This document shows, piece after piece, positions 2,193 to 6,823 of a DNA stretch of 57,956 nt (within the stretch, counting starts at the first letter, position 1; the number at the start of each line of letters is the position of its first letter). The DNA comes from Tidjanibacter sp. (GTDB taxonomy: Bacteria > Bacteroidota > Bacteroidia > Bacteroidales > Rikenellaceae). Position numbers and translations under genes: made by a program. The stretch spans positions 1-57,956 of the forward strand of contig JAGCJH010000073.1 in the NCBI GenBank assembly GCA_017648105.1, read 5' to 3'. The notes under the pieces are model-generated. The model was not told the DNA's origin and searched no databases. It saw only the letters and a program-made list of their open reading frames with translations.

Positions 2193-3182
2193 ATGGAAAA
2201 ACGACCTACAACACTCGAAGCGATAAAGGCTCCCATTGCCGATGAAATGGCTGCATACGAGGGTTTCTTGCGTGAGGCACTCCACTCAGAGAGTCGCTAC
2301 TTCGATGACATTCTGAAATATATCTTTGAAAATAGAGGTAAGGGTGTGCGCCCAACGCTCGTAATGTTGTGGGCTAAACTTCTGTCAGGTGGCAAGGCTT
2401 TCGGCAAGAGAGTATTGCTCTCGGCTTCGCTCATTGAGCTCATCCACACCGCCTCGCTCGTACACGACGATGTGATTGACCGTGCAGATGTGCGTCACGG
2501 CAAGGCGTCAATCAACGAGCAATTTGGTCGTCGCAATGCCATTCTTACGGGCGATTTCATCCTCTCTCGCATCTTTGAGCTCGGTATGGAGAGTCTTGAA
2601 TTTGACATTCTCACCTATGTATCCCACTCCATCAAATGGCTCTGTGAGGGCGAGGTTATCCAAGATGAGCAGACCAAAACGCTCGGTATGACCCACGAGA
2701 AATACTACGATATTATCGACAAAAAGACCGCCTCACTCCTCGCCATCGGCTGTGGTGTGGGCGCAGTTGCAGTGAAGGCTCCCGCCAAGGAGGTCGATGC
2801 AGCCTATGAGTTTGGTCGTAATATTGGTATGGCTTTCCAAATCAAAGATGACATTCTCGATTACGCAGCCACCGACCAGACCGGCAAACCAATGTGTGCC
2901 GACCTTCGTGAGCACAAAATCACTCTTCCACTCTTGGAGGCGCTCGAAGATATGAGTCCCGAGGAGCAGAGCACCATTAGAGCGCTTGTGGGCAAGGCTG
3001 ACGATGAAGCCATTGCCCAAATTCGTGAGCAGATTATCGCCCACAAAGGTATTGAACGAGCAGAAGCGATTATGGCAGAGTATATTGCCAAGGCAAAAGA
3101 GGCACTTGCCCACCACGACGAGAGCCCCTATCGCACCTCTCTTGAAATGATGTGCGACTTTTTGGCAGAGAGGAAACACTAA
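2193..3182 (+). CDS. Long-chain polyprenyl diphosphate synthase
   Basis: 329 residues, the usual length of the trans-isoprenyl synthase family. Both aspartate-rich motifs are intact: DDVID at residues 92-96 (HDDVIDRADVRHG) and DDILD in the second half (QIKDDILDYA). The enzyme condenses isopentenyl diphosphate with an allylic primer to make the C40-C50 side chain, which in this phylum is normally used for menaquinone. Product length cannot be fixed from sequence, so IspB-like (octaprenyl) or a longer-chain synthase are both possible. It has its own promoter and a terminator at 3201-3247. Confidence 0.92.
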   Translation: MEKRPTTLEAIKAPIADEMAAYEGFLREALHSESRYFDDILKYIFENRGKGVRPTLVMLWAKLLSGGKAFGKRVLLSASLIELIHTASLVHDDVIDRADVRHGKASINEQFGRRNAILTGDFILSRIFELGMESLEFDILTYVSHSIKWLCEGEVIQDEQTKTLGMTHEKYYDIIDKKTASLLAIGCGVGAVAVKAPAKEVDAAYEFGRNIGMAFQIKDDILDYAATDQTGKPMCADLREHKITLPLLEALEDMSPEEQSTIRALVGKADDEAIAQIREQIIAHKGIERAEAIMAEYIAKAKEALAHHDESPYRTSLEMMCDFLAERKH

Positions 3183-3200
3183 GGTACCATACAGACCAAC

Positions 3201-3247
3201 AACACCCATTCCATTCGGCTTTGTCGCAAGGAATGGGTGTTTTCTTT
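3201..3247 (+). terminator. Terminator of polyprenyl synthase gene
   Basis: AACACCCATTCC (3201-3212) pairs perfectly with GGAATGGGTGTT (3230-3241), followed by TTTCTTTT. Confidence 0.85.
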
Positions 3248-3279
3248 TGCATTAGGCGCAAGATTTGCAGAAAAAGTAT

Positions 3280-3287
3280 TATATTTG
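3280..3287 (+). promoter_or_regulatory. -7 element directly before zeta-like gene
   Basis: TATATTTG at 3280-3287. Using the spacing seen at the SRP RNA gene, transcription should start near 3294, two bases before the ATG at 3296. No TTG lies 19-20 nt upstream. Confidence 0.55.
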
Positions 3288-3295
3288 CACTTAAT

Positions 3296-3865
3296 ATGCG
3301 AAAACTCTACATCATAGCTGGTTGCAACGGAGCAGGAAAAACCACTGCTTCCTATACGATGTTGCCCGAAATGCTCGATTGTCGTGAGTTCGTCAATGCC
3401 GACGAAATCGCCAAGGGTCTTTCGCCATTTAACCAAGAGCGTATGGCTATCGAGGCGGGAAGGATTATGCTCCAGCGTATGGAGGACCTACTGAGCCAAG
3501 ATGAGGATTTTGCCTTCGAGACAACCCTCGCATCACGCTCCTACACACAGTTCATCGAGAAGGCACACGCCAAGAATTACTTTGTGACCTCGCTTTTCTT
3601 CTGGCTCCCATCGCCAGAATTAGCAATCGAAAGGGTGGCAACTCGTGTGGCAGAGGGTGGACACAACATTCCAGAGGATGTCATCCGTCGTCGTTATGAT
3701 AGTGGCATCCGCAACTTTAAGGCTCTTTATATGCACTCCTGTGACTTCTGGACCATCTATGACAATAGTGGCACCAATGAGGTTAAGCGCATCGCTTGGG
3801 GAACAGGCGATACCGTGAAGGAGGTTTTGGAGCCTGAGTCGTACCAAAAAATTATGGAATTATGA
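3296..3865 (+). CDS. Zeta-toxin family P-loop kinase
   Basis: 189 residues from the ATG at 3296; upstream codons in this frame belong to the preceding terminator region. Walker A is AGCNGAGKTT (residues 8-17), followed by FVNADEIAKGL and FETTLASRSY, the typical order in chromosomal zeta-like kinases. Zeta toxins phosphorylate UDP-N-acetylglucosamine and block peptidoglycan synthesis; other relatives are harmless kinases, so toxicity is not proven. The stop overlaps the start of a 59-residue gene (ATGA), suggesting a two-gene unit with reversed toxin-antitoxin order. The mRNA may lack a 5' leader. Confidence 0.85.
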   Translation: MRKLYIIAGCNGAGKTTASYTMLPEMLDCREFVNADEIAKGLSPFNQERMAIEAGRIMLQRMEDLLSQDEDFAFETTLASRSYTQFIEKAHAKNYFVTSLFFWLPSPELAIERVATRVAEGGHNIPEDVIRRRYDSGIRNFKALYMHSCDFWTIYDNSGTNEVKRIAWGTGDTVKEVLEPESYQKIMEL

Positions 3866-4041
3866 GCGATTTGGAACTTCAACAACTTCAAGAGAAGATC
3901 GATAGTGGTGTGCGCCTTGCACAACGCCGCCTGATTGAGCGAACCATCAAGGAGAATGGTGACCTTGTTGTGGAGCACGAAGGCGAGATTATGCACATCA
4001 AAGCCGAGGAGCTTGAAGAGATGAGAGTGGAGATTCAATAA
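3862..4041 (+). CDS. Small acidic protein, possible zeta partner
   Basis: 59 residues, mostly helix-forming and highly charged (begins MSDLELQQLQEKIDSG, ends EELEEMRVEIQ). The ATG at 3862 overlaps the stop of the zeta-like kinase by four bases, so translation is coupled. I recognise no named family. Its size, charge and coupling would suit an antitoxin or subunit that binds the kinase, but it is not an obvious epsilon antitoxin homologue, and epsilon genes normally precede zeta. A strong terminator follows. Confidence 0.7.
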   Translation: MSDLELQQLQEKIDSGVRLAQRRLIERTIKENGDLVVEHEGEIMHIKAEELEEMRVEIQ

Positions 4042-4102: not shown

Positions 4103-4149
4103 CGAGTGGCGCATCTTGAATGATAACAAGATGCGCCACTCGTGTTTTT
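4103..4149. terminator. Bidirectional terminator, zeta unit / GNAT cassette
   Basis: A 16-bp perfect inverted repeat, 4103-4118 with 4127-4142 (core GAGTGGCGCATCTTG), loop AATGATAA. It is followed by TTTTT on the plus strand and a looser T-run on the minus strand. It lies between convergent transcription units. Confidence 0.8.
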
Positions 4150-4165
4150 ATGTAGAGCCACCACT

Positions 4166-4738
4166 CTACGCTTCTCGCTGTAAGTGCCACATCTGGTGGT
4201 GAAAAAAGGTGCAGGGATTCTTACGCACAAAACCCAATGAAGCGTAGAGGCTCTCTGCTGTGGGATTGGCAAAATCGACAATCAAGCCCACACATCTATG
4301 CCCCTCCTCAAAGACCTTTTGACAGAAGCTATCTACCAACTTGCGTCCCACTCCCAGCCCACGAAATTGGGGCAGGATACCCACCGAGTCGAGGTAGTAT
4401 TCGCCCGCCTCGGTTTCATCGACAATATTGGGGGTGCGCCCAACAAGTTCCCTCAGAACCTCAAAAGTCCCCTCTCTCAATTGCTGCAACTCTGCGCCAT
4501 CGTAGCCCACAATCGCCCCCGCAACGACACCATTAACCTCCGCAACGAGCGCACGCTCCCAACTATACTGTGTACCCTTCCGGTAGGCAATCTCTCCCAG
4601 CACCGCCAGGTAATCATCGCCACAATATGCCCTAAGCGCACTTTCATCGCCAATAGCCATAGCCACCGCCTGGGCAATAATCTCGGCATCTACACTCGTT
4701 GCCCTACGCACCACAACCATCAACTCACTACTTTTCAT
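4166..4738 (-). CDS. GNAT family N-acetyltransferase
   Basis: 190 residues from the ATG at 4738; Met7 (4720) is a plausible alternative start that removes the 11-nt overlap with the AraC-type gene. The N-terminus VVVRRATSVDAEIIAQ and the acetyl-CoA loop motif FRGLGVGRKLV are classic GNAT features, preceded by SVGILP. It transfers acetyl from acetyl-CoA to an amine, substrate unknown. It is the last gene of the lipoprotein - radical SAM - AraC - GNAT cassette and overlaps the gene before it, so it probably serves the same process. Confidence 0.85.
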   Translation of the reverse strand: MKSSELMVVVRRATSVDAEIIAQAVAMAIGDESALRAYCGDDYLAVLGEIAYRKGTQYSWERALVAEVNGVVAGAIVGYDGAELQQLREGTFEVLRELVGRTPNIVDETEAGEYYLDSVGILPQFRGLGVGRKLVDSFCQKVFEEGHRCVGLIVDFANPTAESLYASLGFVRKNPCTFFHHQMWHLQREA

Positions 4739-5360
4739 AACGCCTCTTTGCCGACAAAAGGATTGTCTTTCCTTGTTTTATGTGTTTCTGACCGAGAGGA
4801 TAGGTCTGAAAGTCGATAATATCAAAAGGAGCCACACCCTCAAATGTACCCATAAGTGTAGAGATGTCAGGATTGGGATTTGGCGTGAAGCTCACAGAAA
4901 GGCAAGTTACTGTACCTTCACCGAAATCTCTTGCACGATACTCCTCTGGCGTACATTTATAGGCACACTTGAACGCCCTCGAAAAGTTGGAGGGTGTGGA
5001 AAAATCGCATCGATAGCAAATCTCCTTTATGCTCAGTGAGGTATATTTCAGCAGTCGGGATGCGTGACCGAGGCGTTGTTTGAGAAGCCACCGATGGGGT
5101 GGCTCGCCATAGATTTGCAAGAATTTGCGCTTGAAAGTCACAGGGGTCATATAGCACTGTGCCGCCATCTCAGCTATGGAGTAGTTCTTGAACTCTACAT
5201 CCTCTCCAAGATAGTGAAGGGACAATTTACGAAACTCCTCCATACTCTCTACTACCTCACGCTTGGAATCCTCGGGCGCTTGGCAGCACGACAAGATATA
5301 AGCCCTCACAAAGCGCCAGTTTATCAGATCTCCGGGCTTCTGCTCCAATATTACTCGCAC
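4728..5360 (-). CDS. AraC-type transcriptional regulator, GTG start
   Basis: 210 residues. The frame is open only from 5372 and its first usable start is GTG at 5360, so it overlaps the end of the radical SAM gene by 10 nt. Residues about 60-140 form the double helix-turn-helix AraC domain (YSIAEMAAQCYMTPVTFKRK, then SIKEICYRCDFSTPSNFSRA and CTPEEYR). There is no N-terminal sugar-binding cupin, only about 60 residues, plus an unusual C-terminal extension of about 65 residues. It probably regulates the cassette it sits in; the ligand is unknown. GTG start plus overlap predicts low, coupled expression. Confidence 0.85.
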   Translation of the reverse strand: MRVILEQKPGDLINWRFVRAYILSCCQAPEDSKREVVESMEEFRKLSLHYLGEDVEFKNYSIAEMAAQCYMTPVTFKRKFLQIYGEPPHRWLLKQRLGHASRLLKYTSLSIKEICYRCDFSTPSNFSRAFKCAYKCTPEEYRARDFGEGTVTCLSVSFTPNPNPDISTLMGTFEGVAPFDIIDFQTYPLGQKHIKQGKTILLSAKRRYEK

Positions 5361-6427
5361 AGCCTCTGGTAGTTACAATGTAATAGCTCGTGATTATCGT
5401 CATAGAGGTGCATACCATTGCCCTCGCAGAATTTCCACACTTTACAATCCTTACATTTACCCTTGCGTGCCCACTGGCGATTACGGAAGGGCTCAAAGCG
5501 ATTTTGCCAAACATCCCAGATATTGTCGGTGTAGATATTGCCCTGATCGAAGCTCGCACGAATGCTCGTACAGCCCGATATTGCGCCATCAATCTTGATG
5601 CCCACAATACCAACGCCCGCCATACAGCCAAAGAAATTATCCCTAACCTCAGCCTCATAACCTCCGAGGAAGCCCTCACAGGCGTAGTTACACTTGATGC
5701 GCCCCTCCTTGCGAGTAGCCTCAATAAAATCCATCAGCCCACGATACTCCTCCGAAGGAAGTTGAAGCGCCTCATCATCGGCAGCCCTACCCACTGGGAA
5801 GATTGTGAACAAGCGCCAAGCCTTACAGCCGTGTGCAATCAGAAATTCCTTAAAATCAGCAAGTTGCCTATAATTATCCCTATTCACGCAGGTCACAACA
5901 TCATAGGCAATACCCTCCGTAGAGGTTATAACATCGAGCGCACGAATAGCATTTTTCCAACTATTAGGGTTTTGGCGAATGTAATTGTGCTGCTCCTCAA
6001 AACCATCAATAGAGAGGGTTATGGAGCGCAAGCCCGCAGCCAAGAGCGAACGCATACGCTCCTTCGTGAGAAGCATACCATTGGTCACAATTCCCCAAGG
6101 GTAGCCACGCTTGTGGAGCTCCCTACCAACCACTTCGAGGTCTTTGCGACATAGCGCCTCGCCACCAGTGATGACAACCATCACCTTATTGGGATTGACA
6201 TTGGGCGTAATTTTATCCACCGCACCCAAGAAATCCTCTATGGGCATATCGGGCGTAGCCGATGAGGCACGACAATCACTACCGCAATGGCGACAGTTAA
6301 GGTTGCAGCGCAAGGTCGATTCCCAAAAAATCTCCCTCAACTCGTGCTTCTCAGCCATATCGTGCTTGATGCTTGCAAAGAGTCCGAGCGCAAGGCGTTT
6401 GCGGAGTCCTATTTTGATGTTTGCCAT
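5351..6427 (-). CDS. Radical SAM/SPASM enzyme of the rSAM/lipoprotein system
   Basis: 358 residues. The radical SAM cluster motif CNLNCRHC gives Cys41, Cys45 and Cys48; GGE is at 88-90 and a TIM-barrel core follows. A C-terminal SPASM region carries many cysteines (CKDCKVWKFC and a final pair near the end) that should bind auxiliary 4Fe-4S clusters, as in enzymes that modify peptides or proteins. Its gene starts 15 nt after the small lipoprotein gene. From memory this pairing matches the rSAM/lipoprotein system (TIGR04133 with TIGR04134), whose reaction is not known. The lipoprotein is the natural candidate substrate, but that is inference. Confidence 0.88.
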   Translation of the reverse strand: MANIKIGLRKRLALGLFASIKHDMAEKHELREIFWESTLRCNLNCRHCGSDCRASSATPDMPIEDFLGAVDKITPNVNPNKVMVVITGGEALCRKDLEVVGRELHKRGYPWGIVTNGMLLTKERMRSLLAAGLRSITLSIDGFEEQHNYIRQNPNSWKNAIRALDVITSTEGIAYDVVTCVNRDNYRQLADFKEFLIAHGCKAWRLFTIFPVGRAADDEALQLPSEEYRGLMDFIEATRKEGRIKCNYACEGFLGGYEAEVRDNFFGCMAGVGIVGIKIDGAISGCTSIRASFDQGNIYTDNIWDVWQNRFEPFRNRQWARKGKCKDCKVWKFCEGNGMHLYDDNHELLHCNYQRLCE

Positions 6428-6442
6428 AAGCGCTATTGGGGT

Positions 6443-6823
6443 CTATTTCTTCGACATCACGACACTCACACGCTCGTGATTCTCGCTTGTAACATCTACA
6501 TATACAGAACCATAATAACCACCATTAGCCTCTCCATCCTTATCCTCAGCACGGAGCATCTGGTTGTGATACATTGGATAGTCGGGGGTCGCAATGTGGA
6601 AATAACCCTCCTCATCTGTGGTCGTTACAGCACCATTCACCGCAACCTCAATATCCTTGATTGGCTCCAACTCGGTATTGACAACATAGCCTTTCACTTC
6701 GGTAAAATCCTCTCCTTGGTCGGGATCATAGTAATCATAGGGGGTGCCATAGCAAGCCGTCAAGATGGGGGCTGCCGAGAAGCCCACAAGACTCAGTAAG
6801 ATGTTCTTAATTTTGCGTTTCAT
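6443..6823 (-). CDS. Small lipoprotein of the rSAM/lipoprotein system
   Basis: 126 residues from the ATG at 6823; earlier codons in the frame run through the upstream hairpin. Lipobox ILTAC gives an acylated Cys near residue 24, followed by a Tyr/Asp-rich segment (YGTPYDYYDPDQGEDF). Then comes a beta-sandwich of the carboxypeptidase-regulatory-like type (VKGYVVNTELEPIKDIEVAV, TTTDEEGYFHI). The YGTP motif just after the lipid anchor is, from memory, typical of the lipoprotein partner family TIGR04134. Probably envelope-anchored. It directly precedes the radical SAM gene and lies downstream of a GC-rich hairpin. Confidence 0.85.
   Translation of the reverse strand: MKRKIKNILLSLVGFSAAPILTACYGTPYDYYDPDQGEDFTEVKGYVVNTELEPIKDIEVAVNGAVTTTDEEGYFHIATPDYPMYHNQMLRAEDKDGEANGGYYGSVYVDVTSENHERVSVVMSKK

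Follow-up and report, generated by a model that had tools for sequence, protein, structure and literature searches.

A radical SAM/SPASM enzyme and its probable lipoprotein substrate in Tidjanibacter, with a predicted Xaa-Tyr-Gly modification site

Introduction

What does a radical SAM/SPASM enzyme encoded beside a small lipoprotein act on, and how many of the genes packed around the two belong to the same system? The question is raised by a locus within the window analyzed here, that is, a stretch of 57,956 nucleotides from contig JAGCJH010000073.1 of a Tidjanibacter sp. genome (assembly GCA_017648105.1). Four genes on its minus strand, encoding a lipoprotein, a radical SAM/SPASM enzyme, an AraC-type protein and a GNAT acetyltransferase, form one tight run with a hairpin at the end (Table 1). 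A first-pass annotation of this DNA assigned the first two genes to the TIGR04133/TIGR04134 pair, for which neither the model names nor the open-access literature that we searched describes a reaction, and read all four as one envelope-protein modification system, with the AraC-type gene as dedicated control and GNAT performing a second modification.

Table 1. Coordinates of the features discussed, numbered from the first letter of the window
Feature	Position	Strand	Remarks
Terminator-like hairpin, 16 pairs	4103..4142	both strands	past the GNAT gene
GNAT acetyltransferase gene	4166..4738	-	Acetyltransf_1 47.7 bits, above cut-off
AraC-type gene, HTH at residues 65-144	4728..5360	-	HTH_18 78.7 bits, above cut-off
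Radical SAM/SPASM enzyme, TIGR04133	5351..6427	-	358 aa; Pfam Radical_SAM and SPASM above cut-off
SPASM domain	5441..5626	-	Pfam
CEGFLGGYE segment	5654..5680	-	its counterpart in the Nostoc TIGR04103 enzyme is NNIGYYGPYE
CxxxCxxC [4Fe-4S] motif, Cys41/45/48	6284..6307	-	in the enzyme
Small lipoprotein, predicted substrate	6443..6823	-	126 aa; TIGR04134-like
Cys24-Tyr25-Gly26-Thr27-Pro28, predicted modification site	6740..6754	-	anchor Cys, then YGxP
Lipoprotein signal peptide, residues 1-23	6755..6823	-	lipobox LTA-C

Results

The layout described in the first-pass annotation was confirmed from the coordinates and the family profiles: the radical SAM gene, with its Cys41/45/48, follows the lipoprotein gene after a 15 nt gap, the AraC-type gene has a GTG start and overlaps the radical SAM gene by 10 nt, and the GNAT gene overlaps the AraC-type gene by 11 nt. 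The hairpin past the GNAT gene fits a putative single transcription unit, although the number of terminator-like hairpins (2 sites found vs. 2.9 expected in shuffles) is by itself not above chance, and no match to the Bacteroidetes-type promoter pattern was found close to the enzyme-lipoprotein pair.

The family assignment stood for the enzyme, which scores 571.1 bits against TIGR04133 (cut-off 425; model positions 1-349 of 350), and fell narrowly short for the lipoprotein, which reaches 39.0 bits against TIGR04134 (E 7e-10), 0.8 bit under the cut-off of 39.8, and is hence called TIGR04134-like here. The same model is matched at E 0.001 or better by all 40 rows of our lipoprotein alignment A2, the window lipoprotein included. 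Of the 393 genomes sampled from the order, 87 have a TIGR04133 enzyme above cut-off. Five cysteines of the SPASM domain (Cys268, 286, 325, 328 and 334), and Cys351 beyond it, are invariant across 39 rows. Past its anchor (Cys24 of the lipobox LTAC), the lipoprotein has a weak CarboxypepD_reg match (20.3 bits, under the cut-off of 32.3). Among solved structures, there was no close relative of the enzyme (best E 4e-12) or of the lipoprotein (best profile E 7e-9, to part of a 1267-residue chain).

The gene overlaps and the hairpin that terminates the run speak for the four-part system; however, co-occurrence and gene order argue against it. In the genus, tblastn of the locus stretches places neither the window AraC nor the window GNAT beside the enzyme gene at any of the 13 other loci (0/13 for each), these being the genomes of the genus with the enzyme, with some contigs that stop soon past it (~500 nt in L205). 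Across the 116 loci of a wider set, in which some genomes are present twice, the window AraC matched one ORF as phmmer query (L122, E 7e-7) and the window GNAT matched none. Relatives of both genes occur elsewhere in related genomes, and the two genes are apart in the three GNAT loci examined. When the neighbors were clustered, no third gene extended beyond 14 of 121 loci, and one cluster of homologous lipoproteins covered 98-100 of them. The adjacent lipoprotein that goes with TIGR04133 is present at our locus, 15 nt upstream. Because the AraC-type and GNAT genes are not conserved beside the enzyme, an outcome that the first-pass annotation had itself named as refuting, we reject the four-part system as extremely improbable. 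Judged by these gene neighborhoods, the conserved unit is the enzyme plus its lipoprotein(s), and the other two genes are local neighbors rather than conserved parts of it.

What the enzyme acts on is suggested by a short motif. An unbiased scan of the ORFs beside 123 related enzymes returned YG.P as the top pattern, and the upstream same-strand ORF carries it for 97 of these enzymes, whereas the three positions used as controls gave 7, 10 and 4. The link holds for 46 of 49 family labels. Among lipoprotein-like ORFs, the motif is found in 103 of 130 located just upstream vs. 8 of 145 elsewhere in the same loci. It is encoded by 26 different codon triples among 119 cases, and is thus conserved as protein. 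Two to four motifs occur at 34 of the 123 enzymes, and some short lipoproteins carry the motif repeatedly. The residue X before the Tyr varies (E in 35, C in 34, M in 24, K in 18, V in 16, A and L in 8 each, and others in 5 of 148 motifs), and Cys24-Tyr25-Gly26 of the window lipoprotein conforms to the XYG motif of spliceotide substrates.

In our sorting, the 26 enzymes counted without an upstream YG.P comprise 11 with YG lacking the Pro, six with YG downstream, five with no candidate, three (L038, L043 and L147) that keep the Tyr with Ala or Asp replacing the Gly, and one (L208) where CYGMP is present but masked by ORF extension. Elsewhere in the window's genome (83% complete), the pattern CYGxP gave 8 matches vs. 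28 control matches; by eye, a signal peptide precedes the window site only.

As for which residues near the anchor are conserved, a point on which the first-pass annotation had called for a comparison, clustering blind to the motif gathered 120 homologous neighbor lipoproteins, of which 115 have YG and 97 YG.P. Our alignments A2 (40 of 103 candidate lipoproteins, picked by a Tyr-Gly/Ala/Asp requirement) and A4 (17 rows) are weak proof of an invariant Tyr25 because their lipoproteins were preselected for Tyr-Gly/Ala/Asp, and the motif-blind clustering takes their place. Together with the upstream YG.P pairing, the 115 of 120 make the lipoprotein very probably the substrate of the enzyme, as had been proposed. 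The proposed target within it, a Tyr/Asp-rich stretch, held in part: the Tyr adjoining the anchor Cys recurs in relatives, whereas the Asp-rich part does not. We infer with good confidence that the enzyme acts on the Tyr of this XYG site.

The signal peptide may have a second role. All 17 rows of A4 share its Gly14 and Phe15, and an LGF element is found in 54 of 103 substrate signal peptides vs. 10 of 120 control lipoprotein-like ORFs (the window lipoprotein has VGF instead). Hence, the signal peptide possibly doubles as the recognition leader for the enzyme.

The motif agrees with the Xaa-Tyr-Gly of the spliceases (PlpX). PlpX is IPR026482 in PMC11002830. According to PMC10533398, PlpXY targets XYG, natively MYG and LYG, and accepted tags include a PlpA2-core-derived one that carries YGxP (GGPIRPGYGLPI) and another without it (GAVAAGYGVVFPG); most of the motif-bearing FtsZ tags tried there were not accepted, so the motif by itself appears insufficient to make a substrate. 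The precursor of the Nostoc TIGR04103 enzyme ends in IALYGLPPELF, an unannotated 35-aa ORF upstream of an Agathobacter enzyme on the splicease side of the tree ends in VMYGTGVRM, and a gene downstream of the enzyme at L233 has six KYGYP copies; what looked by eye like a protease-inhibitor domain in this repeat protein was not confirmed, as Pfam finds no family there. No convincing XYG peptide was found at the other nine splicease-side loci of L230-L239 or in Tropicibacter.

In the tree on which we rely, which kept 12 of the 23 TIGR04133 rows of an earlier one, the splicease side plus TIGR04133 (29 rows) is split from 18 other radical SAM rows with support of 100/97. The earlier tree split 36 rows from 5 outgroup rows with 100/100, with an AhbD row that is short at the N-terminus. 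A test that kept TIGR04133, the spliceases and five of the L230-L239 rows as one group, with the Agathobacter and L233 rows left out of it, had a p-AU of 0.067 and was uninformative. TIGR04133 and the splicease side have Ser50, Trp204 and Gly252 in common. All 13 splicease-side rows have Ser50, just past CxxxCxxC, as does one of the 6 outgroup rows. Gly252, in the CEGFLGGYE segment, is present in 21 of 23 TIGR04133 rows and all 13 splicease-side rows and in none of the 6 outgroup rows.

By score, the window enzyme is nevertheless not a member of the PlpX-type family TIGR04103 (IPR026482), with 127.1 bits against a cut-off of 725. Further, for TIGR04133-side enzymes this model scores no better than those of TIGR04053, AhbD or NirJ2. 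The AhbD, NirJ and TIGR04053 rows differ in having HCY-type motifs or lacking the shared residues and in falling outside the splicease-side split, and AhbD and NirJ act, by their model names, on haem precursors. No PlpY-like partner was found either: no further neighbor is conserved, and the 71-aa Nostoc gene has no relative at E 10 among ORFs of at least 30 aa at these loci; a very diverged or distant partner may exist. PlpXY precursors have a Nif11 or NHLP leader, whereas the window lipoprotein, with no Pfam match to Nif11, has a lipoprotein signal peptide in that place. The TIGR03913 GDL-motif peptide maturase is on the same side of the tree and has several adjacent peptides with PYG, but differs in its DUF1843 substrates, some with YA or YM, and in a longer C-terminus.

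Discussion

The pairing of the genes, the conserved site, the motif repeats and the placement in the tree are established by comparison of sequences. On this basis, we somewhat favor a two-gene protein-modifying system of the splicease type, composed of a cytoplasmic radical SAM/SPASM enzyme and a dedicated lipoprotein substrate. The enzyme would meet the lipoprotein precursor in the cytoplasm ahead of export, possibly recognizing it through the LGF-type element of the signal peptide, and would work at Xaa-Tyr-Gly(-x-Pro), here Cys24-Tyr25-Gly26-Thr-Pro. The reaction is probably excision of tyramine (splicing) that leaves a ketoamide. The modified protein would then be exported and lipidated, displaying a reactive ketoamide at or near the membrane anchor, where it might, speculatively, serve as a covalent protease trap or a reaction handle. 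For the Cys-Tyr-Gly class, to which the window belongs, the lipid-bearing Cys would itself become the beta-residue, a reading that we consider doubtful; altering this Cys by splicing could hamper lipidation.

Alternatively, the same XYG site might undergo other radical chemistry that does not splice the backbone, such as a crosslink (e.g., a cyclophane on the Tyr ring), epimerization or another change of the Tyr or Gly. SPASM enzymes carry out many peptide reactions, the evidence for the site leaves the chemistry unfixed, and TIGR04133 is not within TIGR04103 itself. However, the motif and the tree position fit spliceases best, which makes this alternative rather unlikely. Two of its forms can be further constrained: a thioether from Cys (sactipeptide-like) is ruled out as the general reaction because X is Cys in just 34 of the 148 motifs, and, with Gly as the third residue in 2 of the 148, a crosslink to the beta carbon at that position cannot be general either. 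It is also conceivable that YGxP serves the structure or export of these lipoproteins and that the enzyme acts elsewhere in the protein or on something else, given that gene neighborhood is what links enzyme and lipoprotein and that the motif sits at the tether. Yet the motif is also found in short lipoproteins outside the main cluster, some with repeats, and few of the other lipoprotein-like ORFs at these loci have it, as noted above; we regard this explanation as improbable.

Naming the XYG site together with a specific reaction that has a diagnostic mass makes the pair testable, by co-expression or in existing proteomes. If the splicease-type reading is true, gut-type Bacteroidales would bear reactive ketoamide groups on their membrane lipoproteins, and ribosomal beta-amino acids would be put to use on anchored proteins.

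Gene run in the window and its conserved part

Four genes adjoin one another in the window, in the order lipoprotein, radical SAM/SPASM enzyme, AraC-type protein and GNAT protein (spacing of +15, -10 and -11 nt), and the enzyme scores 571.1 bits against the TIGR04133 profile (cut-off 425), which confirms the arrangement described in the first-pass annotation. The lipoprotein falls just under the TIGR04134 cut-off (39.0 vs. 39.8 bits). An ORF for a Zeta-toxin-like AAA kinase (42.9 bits with Pfam Zeta_toxin; cut-off 22.3) shares a 4-nt overlap with a 59-aa ORF, and this toxin-antitoxin-like pair faces the four-gene run.

Features of the gene run and its flank in the window
Feature	Coordinates	Strand	Length
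Lipoprotein	6443-6823	minus	126 aa
Radical SAM/SPASM enzyme	5351-6427	minus	358 aa
AraC-type protein, GTG start	4728-5360	minus	210 aa
GNAT protein	4166-4738	minus	190 aa
Hairpin past the four-gene run	4103-4142		16 pairs
Zeta-toxin-like AAA kinase ORF	3152-4041	plus	

The further proposal that these genes form a four-part system did not hold among relatives. The enzyme is present in 14 of the 23 genomes of the genus (the window's genome counted), and around all 13 others tblastn placed neither AraC (0/13) nor GNAT (0/13) beside it, with some contigs stopping shortly past the enzyme (~500 nt in L205). Run over 116 loci from a broader collection, in which some genomes occur twice, phmmer returned a single AraC-like ORF (E 7e-7) and no GNAT relative; clear GNAT relatives are located elsewhere in genomes of the genus and family, and the three of them compared in their surroundings (53-60% identity) lack an AraC relative as neighbour. 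The AraC query matches something in 120/120 genomes of the family (Rikenellaceae), as is usual for an HTH domain; beyond the window's own genome, its top match shows 45% identity across residues 33-145. By eye, the genes 3' of the enzyme differ among 19 close loci (predicted secreted protein, glycosyltransferase, pseudouridine synthase, excinuclease-like). Judged from these sequence comparisons, AraC and GNAT are outside the conserved system, and in the window they may be co-transcribed with the enzyme-lipoprotein pair.

TIGR04133 scores above its cut-off in 87 of 393 sampled genomes of the order Bacteroidales, and our enzyme set comprised 123 distinct enzymes at 121 loci (phmmer E < 1e-50 against the window enzyme). 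Clustering of neighbours within 4 kb (ORFs of at least 70 aa or carrying YG.P, i.e., Tyr-Gly-x-Pro) yielded, besides the enzyme, a single large cluster of lipoproteins (100 loci) and two small YG-bearing lipoprotein clusters (9 and 6 loci), with no other cluster in more than 14 of the 121 loci; a motif-blind clustering (ORFs from 40 aa, within 2.5 kb) agreed, with the lipoprotein cluster in 98 loci and the remaining clusters in at most 14. Since no other neighbour is widespread, we regard the enzyme together with its lipoprotein or lipoproteins as the conserved unit. These clusterings revealed neither a transporter nor a protease or partner conserved near the enzyme, and none of the ORFs at these loci was a relative, at E 10, of the 71-aa gene 3' of a Nostoc TIGR04103 enzyme. 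Three YGxP lipoproteins precede a single enzyme at L046, L045, L118 and L117, and therefore one enzyme probably serves several substrates at these loci. L088 and L098 carry two tandem TIGR04133-type enzymes, each with its own YG-bearing lipoprotein.

The Tyr-Gly site

When four-residue patterns were scanned without bias in mechanically called upstream same-strand ORFs (45-260 aa, within 1.5 kb), YG.P ranked as the most enriched. It occurs upstream on the same strand of 97 of the 123 enzymes, vs. 7 upstream on the opposite strand, 4 downstream on the opposite strand and 10 downstream on the same strand, the latter control taking in some likely true substrates (Fisher for 97 vs. 10, 1e-31); counted by family labels, the contrast is 46/49 (one label unknown) vs. 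7. A motif-blind cluster of 120 lipoproteins carries YG in 115 and YG.P in 97, and lipoprotein-like ORFs carry YG.P in 103/130 cases directly upstream vs. 8/145 elsewhere in the same loci. The motif is written with 26 codon triples over 119 cases, and therefore selection acts on the protein. In all seven below-cut-off TIGR04133 relatives (L240-L246), a lipoprotein with CYGxP or KYGxP lies upstream, and the short lipoproteins of L086, L067, L070, L059 and L071 have little in common beyond the signal peptide and 1-3 KYGxP copies. One of E, C, M, K, V, A and L precedes Tyr in 143 of 148 motifs, and 2-4 motifs accompany 34 of the 123 enzymes. An alignment of 40 lipoproteins (28% mean column identity), where invariance is confined to Cys24, Tyr25 and two glycines, adds little because its rows were chosen to contain Tyr-Gly/Ala/Asp. 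The window lipoprotein also has a second conserved stretch (residues 94-102), with D94, D96, G97, N100 and G102 invariant in a 17-row alignment.

The 26 enzymes counted without upstream YG.P were sorted by hand: 11 keep YG without that Pro (five in the window's genus: L034, L035, L036, L037, L207), six have YG downstream instead of upstream, three retain Tyr, not Gly (L038 YA, L043 YD, L147 YA), one (L208) carries a CYGMP masked by an over-extended enzyme ORF, and five have no candidate, L058 among them lying at a contig edge. This pattern makes Tyr the firmest residue, followed by Gly and then Pro. Tyr-Gly is very probably the site of enzyme action.

Since radical SAM catalysis takes place in the cytoplasm, ahead of export, the signal peptide could be the enzyme's recognition leader. 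LGF occurs in 54/103 substrate signal peptides vs. 10/120 control lipoprotein-like ORFs, mostly 4-11 residues ahead of the anchor Cys; the window lipoprotein has VGF at this element, and every row of the 17-row alignment keeps G14 and F15. LGF is missing from about half of the substrates, and another element is found in the QACYGTP type.

Proposed relationship to spliceases

Passages of PMC10533398 give MYG and LYG as the native sites of PlpX, the splicease of spliceotide systems, and describe a tag derived from the minimal core of PlpA2 and bearing an engineered Gly, GGPIRPGYGLPI, that matches YGxP, another, GAVAAGYGVVFPG, that does not, and a list of FtsZ tags of which two were accepted. Going by these passages, YGxP is neither needed nor enough for PlpXY, since GAVAAGYGVVFPG lacks it and most FtsZ tags were not accepted. 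PlpX is placed in IPR026482 in a passage of PMC11002830.

Beside a Nostoc plasmid enzyme annotated as nif11-class maturase 3, the Nif11 precursor ends in IALYGLPPELF, a YGxP match. The Agathobacter rectalis plasmid enzyme (L250), on the splicease side of our tree, has an unannotated 35-aa ORF (3794-3901 of that locus) ~80 nt upstream of its gene; the ORF ends in GPVMYGTGVRM, preceded by GGGAGGTGG, and is likely an XYG precursor. A 214-aa gene 36 nt downstream of the splicease-side enzyme of L233 encodes KYGYPC five times with KYGYPGC as the last copy, and matched no Pfam family. Among DUF1843 peptides beside TIGR03913-type enzymes, several have PYG and others YA or YM. Counting against the splicease link, no convincing XYG peptide was found beside the Tropicibacter enzyme or at nine loci of the L230-L239 group, where the few YG-bearing frames were judged non-coding by eye.

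Profile scores of TIGR04133 enzymes do not discriminate among possible kin: the TIGR04053, TIGR04103, AhbD and NirJ2 models all score the window enzyme at 124-129 bits, and all 39 rows of the enzyme alignment match all four. Viewed from the opposite direction, TIGR04133 is the third-best family behind TIGR04103 and TIGR03913 at L229, L230 and L235, and AhbD outscores it at L233 (197 vs. 178 bits). A 47-row tree separates 29 rows from 18 (support 100/97), with ten forks open, some inside the 29. The larger side holds the Nostoc TIGR04103, Azospirillum TIGR03913, DUF1843-linked, Tropicibacter, Agathobacter and L233 enzymes, the L230-L239 and L279/L281 group, 12 TIGR04133-type rows, L280 and L284; the smaller holds AhbD, NirJ, TIGR04347, TIGR04053, MftC and others. 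L280 and L284 are divergent TIGR04133-like enzymes that branch inside TIGR04133, with TCxxx replacing GS after CxxxCxxC. Across 23 TIGR04133, 13 splicease-side and 6 outgroup rows, Ser50 is common to the first two groups (outgroup 1/6), as are Trp204, Cys268, Ala270 and Cys286 (outgroup 2/6 each); Gly252, in the GFLGGYE/GYYGPYE segment, is likewise common to the first two groups (21/23 TIGR04133 rows; outgroup 0/6). The window enzyme is under the cut-off of TIGR04103 (which we take to be the same family as IPR026482) and, unlike in spliceotide systems, no PlpY-like partner or Nif11/NHLP leader is in view; hence, we file it as splicease-like in action, not as a TIGR04103 member.

Proposed reaction and role

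Under our model, the enzyme would bind the lipoprotein precursor while this is still cytoplasmic and excise tyramine at Cys24-Tyr25-Gly26, and a ketoamide would remain at the residue destined to carry the lipid. Splicing seems to us somewhat probable as the reaction, and a worry for the CYG class is that the lipidation enzymes must accept an altered Cys neighbourhood. A search of open-access papers returned no mention of TIGR04133, TIGR04134 or their product names, and nothing on a system of this kind from Bacteroidetes; Scott et al. 2022 lies outside that scope and may already cover it. Review and discussion passages (PMC11117315, PMC10373908) state that spliceotide products inhibit proteases and, by analogy with these passages, it is a fair guess that the modified lipoprotein would serve as a protease trap.
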